Assembly (NCBI RefSeq): GCF_030548465.1
Contig: NZ_JAUOSF010000001.1
Coordinates: 496,001-560,000 of the forward strand
Origin: Tamlana sp. 2_MG-2023
GTDB taxonomy: Bacteria; Bacteroidota; Bacteroidia; Flavobacteriales; Flavobacteriaceae
DNA: 64,000 nucleotides
Direction: 5' to 3'
The translations under genes were made by a program, and so were the position numbers. Positions 5,457 through 61,232 of this stretch are shown here, in pieces (position 1 is the first letter of the stretch; every line of letters starts with the position of its first letter). The notes beneath the pieces were generated by a model, which worked only from the letters and a program-made list of their open reading frames with translations, was not told the origin of the DNA and searched no databases.

Positions 5457-8400
5457 ATGAAATATTTCTCAAGAATCTTAATATTAGCAATCCTAGTTTT
5501 ATCAGGGTGCAAAGACGAATCTAATGACACCCTTAATAATATTCAAAAATTTAAAGATTATATCTTTGAAGTAACATCTGGGGTTGTGTCTGCAAAAGCA
5601 GATATTAAAGTTGTTTTAATGAGTCCTATGAAAGATATCTCATCGGAAGTAGAACTTGATAATAGTATCTTAAAAGTATCTCCTAAAGTACCCGGTAAAG
5701 TTGTCGCATTAAACAATAGAACTATAGCTTTTATTCCAGAAAAAAAATTTGATTCAGATACTAGATACACTTTTAAATTAGATCTAGGCGCAGTACAGGA
5801 CGTTAGCAATGATTATAAAACCTTTGTTTTTGATATAAAAACCATAAAACAAGATTTTCAAGTCATCACTAATAATTTAGAAAGCTATTCTAGAGATTGG
5901 CAATATTTAAATGGCACATTACGCGCTAGCGATAATATTTTGAAGGCTATTGCAGAAAAACTTATTACAGTAAAACAAAAAGGAAAATCGTTGCCAATAA
6001 AAATACTAACGGAGCAAGTAGAAGGGCATTATTTTAAATTTATAATAGATAGTATTCAACGTTTTGAAAAAGATAGTCCTATAGAAATAGAGTGGGATGG
6101 AAGTGATTTTGACATTGATACAGAAGGTGATTACACTTTTAACATACCAGGAAAAAATAATTTTGAAGTCATAGATATCAATGTTTTTGATGAAAATAAA
6201 TACGTAGAAATCAATTTTTCAGACCCAGTTAAGAAGAACTTTAATTTAGATGGTTTTATTACGATTGGAGATAGAAATAATTTATCCTTTTCTTTTATTA
6301 ATAATGTGGTTAGAGTGTATGTTGGAGATATTAAAGAGAGCGAAACACTAACGATACATAGTGGTATTATAAACTTATATGGCTATAAACTTAAGCGCTC
6401 TTTAAGAAAGGAAATTACATTTGAAGATATTAAACCTCAGGTGAAATTATTGCAAAATGGTACAATATTACCAACTTCAGAAAATCTCAAATTTAATTTT
6501 GAAGCTGTCAATTTAAAGGCTGTTGATATTACTGTTATTAAAATTTTTGAAGATAATGTATTGCAGTTTCTTCAAAATAATGATTTAAAAGGTAGTGAGG
6601 AACTTTTACGTGTGGCCAGACCAATAGCTAAAAAAACAATTAATCTATCTAAATACGAGGCAGATTTATCCAATTGGAGATCCTATGCGGTAGATTTAAA
6701 AGAAATAATAAATCCAGATCCAGGTGCAATCTATCGTGTGGAGATTAGTTTCAATAAGCAATATTCTAATTTTAAATGTGAAAATGGAGATGATAGTGAA
6801 ATCATTGAAACCGTTATAAATTACGATCAAGAAGAAGCTGCGAGTAGTAATTGGGATAATGCATATTATGGTGAAGGTGATAATGAATACAATTGGAGAG
6901 CGTCAGAGAATCCATGTGAGCATTCTTATTATAGGAATAAAAAAGTGAGTACCAATATACTGGCATCAAACATTGGTGTTATTGTTAAGCAAGGCAGTAA
7001 TAATAATTATTTTATAGCAGTTAGTGATATTATTACAACAAACCCTATTTCAGATGCCGAGGTTAAATTTTATAATTACCAACAGCAATTAATAGGTAGG
7101 CAAAAATCCGATGCTGAAGGTAAATTAACATTTCCGGCATCATCAAAGGCATATTTTGCAGTTGTTACAAAAAACAACATAAGTACTTATGTGAAGTTAA
7201 ATGATGGGAATGCTTTATCTGTAAGTAAATTTGATGTGGATGGAGCCAAATTAAAACGGGGCTTAAAAGGCTTTATTTATGGTGAACGTGGTGTTTGGAG
7301 ACCTGGAGATACATTGCATTTATCATTTATGTTAAATGATAAAAACAATAAGCTGCCAGAAAATCACCCCGTTAAGTTAGAAGTTTTTGAACCTGCTGGT
7401 TCCTTGTATTTTTCAGCCGTTAATACTAATGGGTTAAATAACTTTTACAAATTTACAGTACCTACATATTCCGATAGTTATACAGGGTCTTGGATGGCTA
7501 AAGTTAGTGTTGGAGGCGCTGTTTTTACTAAAAAATTAAGAATAGAATTTATTAAACCCAATAGGTTAAAAATTAAAACTTCAATCCCTGATAAGGTTAT
7601 TACGAATAAGGAGGTTAATGGGGATCTCGAAGCAACATGGTTACATGGTGCTGTTGCTAAAAATCTACAGGCTGATGTTACGGTAACATTCAATTCAATA
7701 AAAACAAACTTTAAAGCTTTTCCTAGTTATGAATTTGATGACCCAACAAAAACGTTTTCAGGAAAAGAACAAACCGTTTTTAACAATACTATTGATAGCG
7801 ACGGTAAAGCTAAATTTTCATTTCATCCAAGTACAGGTAATAGCGCACCTGGATTACTAAAGGCGACATTTGTTTCAAAAGTATATGAAGAAGGAGGCGA
7901 TTTCAGTACAGATGCTTTTTCCGCAAATTATGCCTCATACAGTTCTTATGTTGGACTATTAACACCAAAAGGCGATGCTGCAAGAGATATGTTGCTAACC
8001 GATACAAAACATAAATTCGAAATAGCTACTGTAGATGCTCATGGAAAACCAACCGCTGTTGAAGATTTAAAAGTAACTATTTTTAAAGTGAATTATAATT
8101 GGTGGTGGAATGAAGATGAGGACAACTTATCTTCTTTTGATACCAGTTTAGATAGAGACGAAGCATTCTCAACAACAGTTTCTACAAATTCTGAAGGTAA
8201 AGGTACTTTTGATTTTGAATTAAAATACCCAGAATGGGGGCGCTATTTAGTATATGTGTATAATAAAGAATCTGGACATTCAACAGGGAAAACAGTATTT
8301 ATAGACTGGCCAGGTTGGGCTGGAAAAGCTAGAAAAGGTGATCCTTCAGCGGCAACCATGCTTTCTTTTTCAACAGATAAAACGGATTATAAGGTTGGTG

Positions 8401-56062: not shown

Positions 56063-56728
56063 TTAAGCTTTCACAGCTTTAACTACAATTTTAAGTTCGA
56101 TATCATCATTGATAAATTTATCACCTAAATCATCAAAAATTGACTTTGAACCATATTTAATATCCCATTTTGTTCTGTCAATAATAAAAGCTTCACTTGT
56201 AAGAGTGACAGCGTTATCTGCATAATCAACAGTAACAGGAATGCTAATATTATGAGTGATTCCTTTAATGGTTAAGTTACCTGAAAGTACGTTTCTAGCT
56301 TCAGATTCTAATAATTCAGTAATTTCAAAAGTTGAAGTTGGATTTTTTTCAACATCAAAAAAGTCTTCGTTTTTTAAATGCCCTAAAAGTTTTGCATTTC
56401 CTTCGTCTTCAGCAGGAATATCTTTAACTACAATAGAATTCATATCGATAGTAACCGAACCACTAACAACTCTCCCGATGCTGCTGCGCTCTACAGTACC
56501 TTCTTGAATAGCAATAGTTCCAAAGTGCTCACCTGTTGGTTTAGTGCCTTTCCACTCGATGCTAGATTCTTCTGTAACTACATTATAAGTTTCACTGTTT
56601 TCAGCTTCGTCTACTACTGCAGGAGCTTCAGCTTCTGTTATTTCAGCTTCTTTTACCTTGTCCTTACAAGATGTAAAAACAGCTGAAGTAGCAATACATA
56701 ATACTAATGTGAATAATGATTTTTTCAT
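56063..56728 (-). CDS. YceI family lipoprotein
   Basis: 221 residues. Lipoprotein signal MKKSLFTLVLCIATSAVFTSC with lipidated Cys21, then an acidic tether (KDKVKEAEITEAEAP). The YceI lipocalin-like barrel follows: SSIEWKGTKPTGEHFGTIAIQEG, SITIDMNSI-type strands, LLGHLKNEDFFDVEKNPTSTFEI, LTIKGITHNISIPV, and the C-terminal WDIKYGSKSIFDDLGDKFINDDIELKI. Such proteins bind isoprenoid or other hydrophobic ligands in the periplasm. Divergent from grpE. Confidence 0.93.
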   Translation of the reverse strand: MKKSLFTLVLCIATSAVFTSCKDKVKEAEITEAEAPAVVDEAENSETYNVVTEESSIEWKGTKPTGEHFGTIAIQEGTVERSSIGRVVSGSVTIDMNSIVVKDIPAEDEGNAKLLGHLKNEDFFDVEKNPTSTFEITELLESEARNVLSGNLTIKGITHNISIPVTVDYADNAVTLTSEAFIIDRTKWDIKYGSKSIFDDLGDKFINDDIELKIVVKAVKA

Positions 56729-57447: not shown

Positions 57448-58563
57448 ATGGCAAAAAGAGATTTTTACGAAATATTAGGAATTAGTAAAGGGGCAAGTGC
57501 TGCTGAAATCAAGAAAGCTTACAGAAAAAAAGCGATTGAATTTCACCCAGATAAAAACCCAGATGATAAGGACGCAGAAGCTAAATTTAAAGAGGCGGCT
57601 GAAGCATATGAAATTCTAAGCGACGAAAACAAAAAAGCACGTTACGACCAATACGGTCACCAAGCCTTCGAGAATGGCGGTGGTGGCGGTGGCTACGGCG
57701 GTGGCATGAATATGGATGACATATTCAGCCAGTTTGGTGATATTTTTGGAGGCGGCGGTTTCGGAGGTGGCTTCGGAGGCGGCGGTGGCCAACGTCGTGT
57801 TAAAGGTAGCAACCTACGTATTCGTGTTAAATTAACTTTAGAAGAAATTGCTAATGGCGTTGAGAAAAAAGTTAAAGTAAAACGTAAAGTTCAAGCGCCA
57901 GGTACTACCTATAAAACGTGTTCAACCTGTCAGGGTAGCGGACAAGTAACTCGTATTGCAAATACTATTTTAGGGCGTATGCAAACCTCTGCACCATGTA
58001 ATGTTTGTGGTGGAGCTGGTCAAACTATCGATAAAAAACCTAGTGATGCAGATGCTCAAGGTTTAAAAGTATCTGAAGAAACGGTTTCTATTAAAATCCC
58101 TGCAGGTGTTGTTGATGGTATGCAGCTTAAAGTTTCTGGAAAAGGAAACGAAGCACCAGGAAATGGTATTTCAGGTGATTTAATTGTTGTTATTGAAGAA
58201 GAACAACACGATAAATTACAACGTGAAGGTGATAATTTACATTATGATTTATACGTAAGTTTCCCTGATGCTGTTTTAGGAACTTCTAAAGAAATTGATA
58301 CCGTTACCGGAAAAGTACGCATCAAAGTTGAAGCTGGTGTACAATCGGGTAAAATTTTACGCTTACGCGGAAAAGGAATTCCAAGTATCAACGGTTACGG
58401 GAAAGGTGATTTACTAGTACACGTTAATGTGTGGACACCTAAAACACTGAATAAACAACAAAAAGATTTCTTTGAAGCGATGCAAGATGATGAGCATTTT
58501 GATCCGAAACCAGAGAGTTCAGATAAATCTTTCTTTGAGAAAGTAAAAGATATGTTTTCGTAA
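57448..58563 (+). CDS. dnaJ: Chaperone DnaJ with a reduced zinc-finger domain
   Basis: 371 residues. The J domain (about 1-70) has the HPD motif at 33-35. A Gly/Phe linker (about 76-115) follows, then the cysteine-rich region, the two substrate-binding beta domains ([24 protein letters not shown]) and a C-terminal dimer region. Only two CxxCxGxG repeats are present, at Cys158/Cys161 and Cys184/Cys187, instead of the usual four. These would form one zinc centre, equivalent by position to the inner pair. DnaJ delivers unfolded clients to DnaK. Operon with grpE, ended by a clear terminator. Confidence 0.95.
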
Positions 58564-58584
58564 CAAAAACGATTCAGAATTAAG

Positions 58585-58612
58585 AAATCCGCTTTTATAG
58601 CGGATTTTTTTT
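58585..58612 (+). terminator. Terminator after dnaJ
   Basis: Perfect 8-bp stem AAATCCGC/GCGGATTT with a 7-nt loop and a T run, 22 nt after the stop. Confidence 0.93.
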
Positions 58613-58677
58613 GTCAATAACTATAAGATATACTGCTCATTACTAGGAAGTATTAAAAAAAAAAGTATATTTGAAAA

Positions 58678-58763
58678 TCACTAATTAAGTTTAGTGATAA
58701 TTTTTCTTTTTCATAGCAATTTTTTTCCCATCCTTAATTTTTTTAAGGGTGGGTTTTGTTTTT
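58678..58763 (+). ncRNA. Candidate small RNA of about 85 nt
   Basis: A perfect -7 element TATATTTG (58666-58673) is followed by an 8-bp hairpin ATCACTAA/TTAGTGAT (58677-58684 and 58691-58698). A U-rich single strand and a terminator hairpin come next (11 bp, CCCATCCTTAA at 58727-58737 with TTAAGGGTGGG at 58743-58753), then T-rich sequence. No open frame of note lies between. This is what a short independent transcript should look like. No known RNA family was recognised. Confidence 0.5.
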
Positions 58764-58986
58764 AGGCTATTTTGCTTAGTTGAAAGGCGATAAAAATAGC
58801 CTTATAGTGGCCTCTTAATTAGCTTAAACATGGTGCTTTTCAGTATTAGTTTTATAGTGAAATACGGAGTTTCATCAAGCGCACCAATGCATATTTAAAT
58901 AGCACTTAGAATTATTGACTTATAAATCCTAAAAAGCACGAGATAGGTTTCATACATTTAATATATTTACCGTTAAAAGAATATCT

Positions 58987-59913
58987 ATGAGTAATTTATT
59001 AGAGGTTAATAAGGTTTCCAAGAAATTCGGTGACTTTAAAGCCTTAAATGATGTTTCTGTTTCAGTTCCCGAAGGTAGTATTTTTGGACTTTTAGGGCCA
59101 AACGGCGCAGGAAAAACAACCTTAATTCGTATTGTAAATCAAATTACCATGCCCGACTCTGGTACGGTGCATTTAGGAGGTGAGTTACTCAACCAAAAAC
59201 ATATTAGCGATATTGGCTATTTACCCGAAGAGCGCGGTTTGTACAAATCGATGAAAGTGGGTGAGCAGGCTTTGTACCTCGCGCAGCTAAAAGGTTTAAG
59301 TAAATCTGAAGCCAAAAAACGTTTAAAATATTGGTTCGATCGTTTAGAGATTGGTGACTGGTGGAACAAAAAAATACAGGAACTCTCTAAAGGAATGGCG
59401 CAAAAAATTCAGTTTGTGGTTACCGTTTTACATGAACCTAAGCTGTTGATTTTCGATGAACCATTTTCAGGATTTGATCCTATTAATGCTAATTTAATTA
59501 AAGATGAAATTTTACGATTGCGAAATGAAGGCGCAACTGTGATTTTCTCAACACATCGTATGGAGTCTGTAGAAGAACTTTGTGATGATATCGCCTTAAT
59601 CAATAAATCTAATAAAATTTTAGACGGAAAATTAGTTGATATTAAAAGGCAATATAAAATAAACACCTTTGAAGTTGGTATTAGAACTTCAAACAATGCC
59701 AGTTTAAGACTAGAATTAAATGACAAGTTTAATGTGTCTGAAGCCAATTTTAAAACCCTTGATGACGAATTAAAAGTGAATATTAAATTAGATGAGGCGG
59801 TTAAACCAAACGACTTACTTAACTATTTAACTTCAAAAGGTGAGGTGTCTCATTTTGTAGAACTCATTCCTAGTGTAAATGATATATTCATTCAAACCGT
59901 AAAGAATAACTAA
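58987..59913 (+). CDS. ABC transporter ATP-binding protein, NatA-like
   Basis: 308 residues. Walker A GPNGAGKTT (about 36-44), Q-loop region YLPEERGLYKSMKVGEQ, signature LSKGMAQKIQF, and Walker B LLIFDEPFSGFDPINANL, with the H-loop in FSTHRME. A C-terminal extension of about 90 residues follows the ATPase core, as in NatA/Ybh-type exporters. It would energise the permease encoded 5 nt downstream, most likely to export a cation or other substrate. First gene of a four-gene run that ends with the NtrC-like regulator. Confidence 0.93.
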   Translation: MSNLLEVNKVSKKFGDFKALNDVSVSVPEGSIFGLLGPNGAGKTTLIRIVNQITMPDSGTVHLGGELLNQKHISDIGYLPEERGLYKSMKVGEQALYLAQLKGLSKSEAKKRLKYWFDRLEIGDWWNKKIQELSKGMAQKIQFVVTVLHEPKLLIFDEPFSGFDPINANLIKDEILRLRNEGATVIFSTHRMESVEELCDDIALINKSNKILDGKLVDIKRQYKINTFEVGIRTSNNASLRLELNDKFNVSEANFKTLDDELKVNIKLDEAVKPNDLLNYLTSKGEVSHFVELIPSVNDIFIQTVKNN

Positions 59914-59918
59914 TTCTA

Positions 59919-61232
59919 ATGAACCACTTACCGCTTATTATAAAACGCGAATACTTAACGAAAGTTCGAAATAAATCCTTTATTATCATGACTTTTTTGA
60001 GTCCCATAATATTTATGGTGCTTATCGCGTTCGTGGCTTATCTCACACAACTTAACAATGATAAAGTTCGTGTTATTTCCATTTTAGACGAATCAGGATT
60101 AGTCAAAAATGTGTTTAAAAAAACAGAACACACAACTTATAATATTCTACACGGATTATCGCTAGAGGAGGCCCAAGCCCTTGTTGTAGAAACTGAAGGC
60201 ACCGGATTGTTGCACATTCATAAATTAGAGAATGAAGCTATTGATGCGCAGCATATTACTTTTTATTCCGAGGAAGCACCATCCTTGAGTTTAATTTCGG
60301 ATATAGAAAATCAAGTTGAACAGCGTCTCACAAATATAAAACTTCAGGAAAATGGTGTTGATGTTGAAATGATTAATAATTCTAAAGTAAAGATTACGAT
60401 TGCACAGGAAAGTTTTGAAGGTGAAAAAACTTCAAAAGTAGATAGTGTCATCAAATTAATTTTTGGTGGAGCTGCAGGCTATTTACTTTTCATGTTCATC
60501 ATTATCTATGGTAATATGATTATGCGTAGTGTTATCGAAGAGAAAACGAGCAGAATTATAGAAGTTATTATTTCATCTGTAAAACCTATGCAGCTCATGC
60601 TAGGTAAAATTATAGGAACTTCTCTTGCTGGTATAACCCAAGTAATTATTTGGTTAATTTTTGGAGGAATATTAATGACGGTAACTTCAATAGTTTTAGG
60701 AATTGACATGGCAGAAATGCAAACACCACAACAGCAGGTTATGGAACAAGCTATGGAGAATCCAGAAGTAAGTGCGCAGGTTCAAAATATTGCCAATGCT
60801 TTTTTCCACTTGCCATTAACTAATTTAATTATTGCTTTTATTTTGTTCTTTATAGGCGGTTATTTATTTTACAGTTCACTGTATGCTGCTATTGGTGCTG
60901 CCGTAGATAATGAAACCGATACGCAACAATTTATGATGCCTATTATCATGCCTTTAATTTTAGCGGTTTATATTGGGTTTTTTACCGTTATTGAAGACCC
61001 CCATGGCACGGTTTCAACAGTATTTTCTTTTATTCCATTAACTTCTCCGGTAGTGATGCTTATGCGTATTCCGTTTGGTGTCCCTATTTGGCAGCAAATT
61101 TTGTCTTTAGCGATTTTAATTGCTACGTTTATAGCTACCGTTTGGTTTGCTTCAAAAATTTACCGCGTGGGTATTTTAATGTATGGTAAAAAACCAACCT
61201 ATAGAGAGTTAATGAAATGGATTAAGTACTAA
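59919..61232 (+). CDS. ABC-2 type transporter permease, NatB-like
   Basis: 437 residues. An N-terminal helix (about 19-42, SFIIMTFLSPIIFMVLIAFVAYL), a large extracytoplasmic domain (about 45-180), then five or six membrane helices (LLFMFIIIYGNMIMRSVIEEKTSRIIEVIISS with the family EEK/TSR motif, and VPIWQQILSLAILIATFIATVWFA). This matches NatB/ABC-2 permeases. The ATG follows 5 nt after the ATPase stop. The substrate is not known; sodium export is only the family's best-studied example. Confidence 0.92.
   Translation: MNHLPLIIKREYLTKVRNKSFIIMTFLSPIIFMVLIAFVAYLTQLNNDKVRVISILDESGLVKNVFKKTEHTTYNILHGLSLEEAQALVVETEGTGLLHIHKLENEAIDAQHITFYSEEAPSLSLISDIENQVEQRLTNIKLQENGVDVEMINNSKVKITIAQESFEGEKTSKVDSVIKLIFGGAAGYLLFMFIIIYGNMIMRSVIEEKTSRIIEVIISSVKPMQLMLGKIIGTSLAGITQVIIWLIFGGILMTVTSIVLGIDMAEMQTPQQQVMEQAMENPEVSAQVQNIANAFFHLPLTNLIIAFILFFIGGYLFYSSLYAAIGAAVDNETDTQQFMMPIIMPLILAVYIGFFTVIEDPHGTVSTVFSFIPLTSPVVMLMRIPFGVPIWQQILSLAILIATFIATVWFASKIYRVGILMYGKKPTYRELMKWIKY

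Follow-up and report, generated by a model that had tools for sequence, protein, structure and literature searches.

Does the gap between dnaJ and an ABC exporter operon in Tamlana sp. 2_MG-2023 hold an independent small RNA gene, and what could such an RNA do? The initial annotation of the window (the whole 64,000-nucleotide stretch of DNA that was analysed) had proposed one from a -7 promoter element, a hairpin, a U-rich linker and a terminator, and all four parts lie where it placed them (Table 1). We are nearly certain that positions 58666-58763 form a conserved structured sRNA gene, here called RNA A. This stretch folds at -25.2 kcal/mol (z -7.1), a value that 0 of 200 shuffled sequences equalled, and the RNA would start at 58677, since TAnnTTTG has been described at -12 to -5 in flavobacterial promoters (PMC9723704). 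The motif TANNTTTG alone is at chance level in the window (104 occurrences versus 104.6 expected). At the dnaJ terminator we found GCGGATTTTTTTT, and the identical sequence occurs in several loci of the same genus.

Table 1. Positions of RNA A, its parts and its neighbors in the window, and of RNA A-like copies in phages
Feature	Position	Strand	Remarks
dnaJ	57448..58563	+	Pfam DnaJ, DnaJ_C; usual neighbor upstream of RNA A
dnaJ terminator hairpin and T-tract	58582..58612 (about)	+	directly 3' of dnaJ
-7 promoter element TATATTTG	58666..58673	+	conserved in dnaJ-linked copies
RNA A, predicted sRNA of ~85 nt	58677..58763	+	R1 match 98 bits; fold z -7.1
RNA A 5' hairpin ATCACTAA/TTAGTGAT, 8 bp, 6-nt loop	58677..58698	+	
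RNA A single-stranded U-rich linker	58699..58726	+	from the fold and the copies of aligned relatives
Near-invariant linker core CTTTTTCATAGCAATTT	58706..58722	+	proposed start-codon-pairing seed; kept in paralogues
RNA A intrinsic terminator, stem CCCATCCTTAA/TTAAGGGTGGG (58727-58753), 11 bp	58727..58763	+	T-tract to 58763
ABC exporter ATPase and permease	58987..61232	+	Pfam; usual downstream neighbors of RNA A
Phage RNA A-like copy, Leef_1	L645:1477-1559		unannotated gap
Phage RNA A-like copies, Danklef_1 and Freya_1	L646/L647:1480-1561		unannotated gaps

When the stretch after dnaJ was used as a BLAST query against 60 genomes, the best matches fell in the same family, the Flavobacteriaceae, and were concentrated on the candidate RNA, which is single-copy in its own genome. 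TCTTTTTCATAGCAATTTT is present at 34 of the 37 BLAST places. We aligned 33 copies (alignment A1, drawn from 34 extracted sequences), omitting from the 37 places L042:1529, which is a split copy, L043, L040 and L039; the invariance of the linker within A1 is in part built in, since the linker string served to locate the copies, and 34 of 37 is the fair figure. A covariance model of RNA A, R1, matched 175 of 199 Flavobacteriaceae genomes and 154 of the 165 of good quality. Outside the family, there was one outsider match among 198 genomes of the class (E 0.0096) and three candidate outsider matches among 148 genomes of the order (E 9e-4 to 7e-3), which suggests that RNA A is rare or absent there. 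Scanning named genomes for an exact 20-mer yielded at least 118 loci; among those listed, nearly all came from Flavobacteriaceae genera or Flavobacteriales, and 112 of 118 matched R1 at E≤0.01 (78/80 and 34/38), including a Saprospiraceae-labelled locus (L175). The listed loci L118, L134, L158, L173, L179 and L194 gave no R1 match at E≤0.01. Rfam 15 returned nothing at the gathering score for the RNA A stretch; the best match below threshold (E up to 10), a Trp_leader-like hit on the strand opposite the dnaJ terminator, was rejected at 29.5 bits versus a cut-off of 41.

Both hairpins are conserved as structures. All 33 copies in A1 have a terminator fold, and in 32 of them the 5' hairpin is better than dinucleotide shuffles (p<0.05). 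The initial annotation had named compensatory changes in relatives as the check on its hairpins. When this was run on 91 model-aligned copies, an alignment fitted to the structure and hence biased toward a paired result, both sides had changed at 18 of 19 pairs (8/8 in the 5' hairpin and 10/11 in the terminator stem), 96.4% of cells were paired, and the covariation score was 0.655, versus 0.186 for shuffled and at most 0.139 for slid alignments. While both hairpins covary, the linker CUUUUUCAUAGCAAUUU hardly varies, and this comparative evidence favors the earlier suggestion that the U-rich middle may be a target-binding region.

Among the RNA A matches listed in named genomes, dnaJ lies immediately upstream on the same strand at 94 of 120 places and an ABC ATPase within 800 nt downstream at 65, 64 of which also have dnaJ upstream. 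RNA A is missing at 9 of 10 family dnaJ loci that were chosen either because their genomes do not match R1 or for comparison (L226 to L232, L234 and L235); the tenth, L233, has it. A 12-mer after dnaJ in L236 was rejected as opposite-strand coding DNA by eye. In RNA A paralogues, some of them tandem and all picked by the linker string, the linker is kept, whereas neither the 5' hairpins nor the terminators are related to one another.

The linker also occurs in phages. We found the linker 17-mer in 38 IMG/VR stretches, and 23 IMG/VR loci with the 17-mer match R1 at E≤0.01, a count that is inflated because all of the loci share the 17-mer. By strict anatomy, 20 of 39 IMG/VR places have a terminator, 10 have a -7 element and 8 have both. 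The Polaribacter phages Leef_1, Danklef_1 to Danklef_5 and Freya_1 to Freya_10 match, with no annotated feature beneath, and R1 confirmed the copies in the three that were examined (Leef_1, Danklef_1 and Freya_1), of which Danklef_1 and Freya_1 carry one extra U in the linker. The linker core is present in the Tenacibaculum phage Gundel_1, and L496, a contig as long as this phage, has an R1 match of 36 bits (6757-6848).

The linker is antisense to a start-codon region, AAAUUGCUAUGAAAAAG / AAATTGCTATGAAAAAG, of proteins that begin with MKK. Of 80 family genomes, 74 contain its partial complement TTGCTATGAAAAA, and 72 of those 74 match R1. These 72 genomes hold it at 198 places (about 92 sRNA copies), versus 44 for a reversed control pattern. 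Among the matches listed, we examined 80 places classed as lying outside the sRNA, of which L346 proved to be RNA A seen on the other strand. At 36 of these 80, TTGCTATGAAAAA lies at the start of a frame of at least 100 codons, and at 10 it is internal to an open frame. From base frequencies, about 11.6 such starts would be expected over all 80 genomes. Most of the 36 start genes look secreted or lipoprotein-like by eye, and Pfam assigned among them a TonB-plug protein, three fasciclins, YceI, sulfatase, GSDH, NamZ and others; the fasciclins (3 of 36) were rejected as a conserved target, as the site is not kept in orthologues. For control k-mers, 40 of the 44 listed places in 17 genomes were examined, and 5 of them were starts; TTGCTATGAAAAA gave 10 starts in the same 17 genomes. 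A raw Fisher test of TTGCTATGAAAAA starts against controls gave p 4e-4, which overstates the difference because the three control k-mers share one non-start background. The general enrichment of the linker complement at gene starts thus appears weak, suggestive rather than proven.

In the genome of RNA A itself, a sample of 404 starts held 7 with predicted linker pairing at or below -12 kcal/mol, versus a mean of 8.6 for shuffled linkers, and the exact complement TTGCTATGAAAAAG is absent from this genome apart from RNA A itself. With up to two mismatches, four gene starts were found among 50 of 122 places (-9.6 to -15.7 kcal/mol).

Long complementarity points more specifically to YceI-family genes. 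Perfect complementarity of at least 20 nt was found at five gene starts, three of them YceI-like, where it runs unbroken for 27 nt (L341), 23 nt (L118) and 20 nt (L194) and reaches the noncoding 5' side. L341 is the strongest of the 36 starts; L118, from a partly masked marine MAG, and L194, from Salegentibacter lacus, were both landed on by the 20-mer scan. The YceI identity comes from Pfam for L194 and L341 and from tblastn for L118 (44% identity). For RNA A of the window against yceI from another genus, the predicted gain is -30.6 kcal/mol with both sRNA hairpins intact. The other two starts belong to a lipoprotein gene (L285, 21 nt) and, in a Bacteroidales-labelled MAG, to a gene that is pyruvate-carboxylase-like by eye (L158, 20 nt). 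Two YceI genes on hand for other reasons (L384 and L267) have just 11 to 12 complementary nt, and no secreted-YceI orthologue was located in the RNA A genome. A YceI-family lipoprotein gene adjoins grpE-dnaJ in the window (56063-56728, minus strand), and many relatives have a similar gene close to dnaJ; the starts of these adjacent lipoprotein genes, including that in the window, are not complementary to the linker.

Among the listed TTGCTATGAAAAA places, 33 are neither at a gene start nor inside a frame, and 7 of these define a second conserved noncoding RNA, RNA B, at the center of L269, L278, L281, L312, L319, L331 and L338. Each consists of a -7 element, a hairpin enclosing TTGCTATGAAAAAG, the motif TTATTGGTT(A/T)GGTTGT and a terminator. 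The stem differs between genomes, while the enclosed linker complement and the second motif are conserved; hairpin p-values range from 0.003 to 0.05, and the motif occurs nowhere else in the sequence then compared. Rfam gave no match to RNA B at E≤0.05. An inverted repeat like TTTGTTTAA...TTAAACAAA lies upstream of the promoter at most of the loci (by eye). The neighbors are TetR and an HSP90-type protein (HtpG by eye) in two genomes, an ABC1 kinase in four (two by Pfam and two by eye) and other genes at L312. L291 and L335 appear by eye to be variants lacking the GGTTAGG motif. RNA B copies without the anti-linker would have been missed, since the seven were found through it. The motif was absent from the genome of RNA A among the 50 of 122 places with up to two mismatches. 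In viral contigs it occurred at 120 places, which we discarded as chance matches because none carries the anti-linker.

All seven RNA B genomes have RNA A by R1, and the simplest reading of RNA B is a candidate sponge for RNA A. RNA B, by presenting the complement of a seed, may be analogous to the sRNA sponges of enteric bacteria; unlike them, this candidate antagonist appears to be a gene in its own right that has a promoter and a further conserved stretch. Tentatively, and with less than even confidence, we envisage a family-wide circuit of three players: RNA A, the sponge RNA B, and phage copies that use or disturb the host circuit. The RNA B hairpin, which has TetR/HtpG or ABC1 kinase beside it at six of seven loci, would then mimic a target start codon, and phages would carry the same linker module in unrelated hairpins.

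We postulate, with somewhat better than even confidence, that RNA A is a trans-acting repressor of translation initiation that pairs with start codons. An RNA of about 85 nt would be transcribed from its own promoter after grpE-dnaJ, and its 5' hairpin and terminator hairpin would keep the 17-nt linker open. The linker would pair around the mRNA start codon (AAAUUGCU-AUG-AAAAAG) and block translation initiation, mainly of secreted-protein genes beginning MKK or MKN, with YceI-family genes as the best target candidates. Shine-Dalgarno sites are described as lacking in these bacteria (PMC6847099), which would make the start codon a natural sRNA target. We infer transcription, pairing, repression and targets from sequence, and any link of RNA A to the heat-shock genes would have the same standing.

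One challenge is that RNA A may be only the 3' end and terminator of the grpE-dnaJ transcript, with no separate RNA. Among 125 distinct dnaJ-linked copies, 87 have the -7 element no more than 60 nt past the stop codon of dnaJ (median 31), so that in most relatives the RNA A terminator probably ends dnaJ transcripts too. The initial annotation had taken the upstream dnaJ terminator as an argument against read-through; that stands in this genome, where dnaJ does have its own terminator, and fails for most relatives, the separate terminator being a local feature of this locus. Neither was a conserved -33 TTG element seen in the dnaJ-linked copies, which have an A-tract there and the -7 element as their sole conserved promoter part. 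Against the challenge, chromosomal paralogues and phage copies occur without dnaJ and with their own -7 element and terminator, which argues that RNA A is an independent unit, and a terminator has no need of an invariant linker. We thus hold a mere dnaJ 3' end to be very improbable, and comparative genomics supports what was first proposed, an independent sRNA gene that has a -7 element and a terminator of its own. A short peptide, on either strand of the linker, seems more improbable still. The region had been described as free of reading frames, and this needs amending for a 23-codon GTG frame (58694-58765) that spans the linker; its start and length are poorly kept among copies, as an in-frame start precedes the linker in 22 of the 33 aligned copies and is absent from 11, and lengths range from 13 to 28 codons, which led us to reject the peptide. 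The antisense ATGAAAAAG frames opposite the linker are likewise short and variable.

If RNA A is separate, its linker might instead be a protein-binding site, with RNA A titrating or carrying an RNA-binding protein or ribosomal factor and the start-codon complementarity being secondary. That all 17 nt are conserved, beyond UUUUUCAU, in paralogues with unrelated hairpins would fit this, as would the lack of another exact linker complement in its own genome and the binding of FopS by the Bacteroides chaperone RbpB (PMC11697453). We nevertheless consider it rather unlikely: the long complementarity at YceI-like starts and the anti-linker of RNA B suggest RNA-RNA pairing, and RRM_1, the domain of RbpB and the one RNA-binding domain searched, had no match in any of 13 family genomes. 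Another trans action, such as activation or pairing away from start codons, would suit the 10 of 80 listed TTGCTATGAAAAA places that are internal to frames and the mixed outcome of the target tests; the YceI cases speak against it, as does the complementarity of the linker to start codons, and we judge it improbable.

The closest counterparts of the proposed start-codon repressor are FopS and GibS of Bacteroides, which repress by start-codon pairing (PMC11697453, PMC7366714). Like RNA A, they are short sRNAs with paralogous copies and a UUUUUCAU seed, and a phage copy is reported for FopS, as we found for RNA A; start-codon pairing is demonstrated for FopS and GibS in these papers and proposed for RNA A. 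The FopS model (Rfam RF04319) begins GUGUUUUUCAUgG / GUGUUUUUCAUgGUAUUAG. RNA A departs from both in sequence beyond UUUUUCAU(A/G)G, has its seed between two hairpins rather than at a single-stranded 5' end, and usually occurs once per genome, in synteny with dnaJ. The RF04319 model gave no match at RNA A. Just 3' of RNA A (58833-58899), a weak FopS-model match of 18 bits (cut-off 56) is probably due to chance.

Within the family, the Rfp RNAs of Flavobacterium psychrophilum are, like RNA A, conserved flavobacterial sRNAs (PMC9723704). Rfp18, as described there, pairs via a third stem-loop, whereas RNA A consists of two hairpins joined by an unpaired linker. A homologue of RNA A may be among the 85 Rfp transcripts of that study. 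Our literature search, whose scope lay outside the sequence supplements of PMC9723704, retrieved no description of RNA A, and Flavo-1, a flavobacterial RNA motif named in that paper, had no Rfam match here. RNA A has the general features of a trans-acting sRNA, namely a -7 element, an intrinsic terminator, conserved structure and a single-stranded seed, without a -33 element. The Flavobacteriaceae are a major aquatic family in which RNA-based control has been little explored, and our data suggest that start-codon-pairing seeds of the FopS type may extend beyond gut Bacteroides. One family-wide RNA module, YceI as a named candidate target family, an RNA that may act as antagonist and copies in Polaribacter phages that are in culture make the proposal testable.

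Some genomes carry many copies of RNA A, with 11 matches at E≤1 in G007, 9 in G061 and 8 at E≤0.01 in G462. Paralogues form tandem arrays in L212 and L213, each with a hairpin and terminator, and L041 (1041-1644) has two copies in tandem, with dnaJ on one side and the RNase P RNA gene on the other. In G004, a complete RNA A and a partial copy about 0.9 kb off share one region (L042:1300-2700), and the right half of a further copy lies at a distance of about 139 kb (L043); short palindromic repeats and an apparent REP-associated transposase gene (by eye) lie between the first two. A phage-type integrase gene directly adjoins an RNA A paralogue in Tenacibaculum caenipelagi (L140:352-1589), and the last 260 bases of L173, also from Tenacibaculum, hold tandem linker-like motifs (CTTTTTCAT...) at the contig end.
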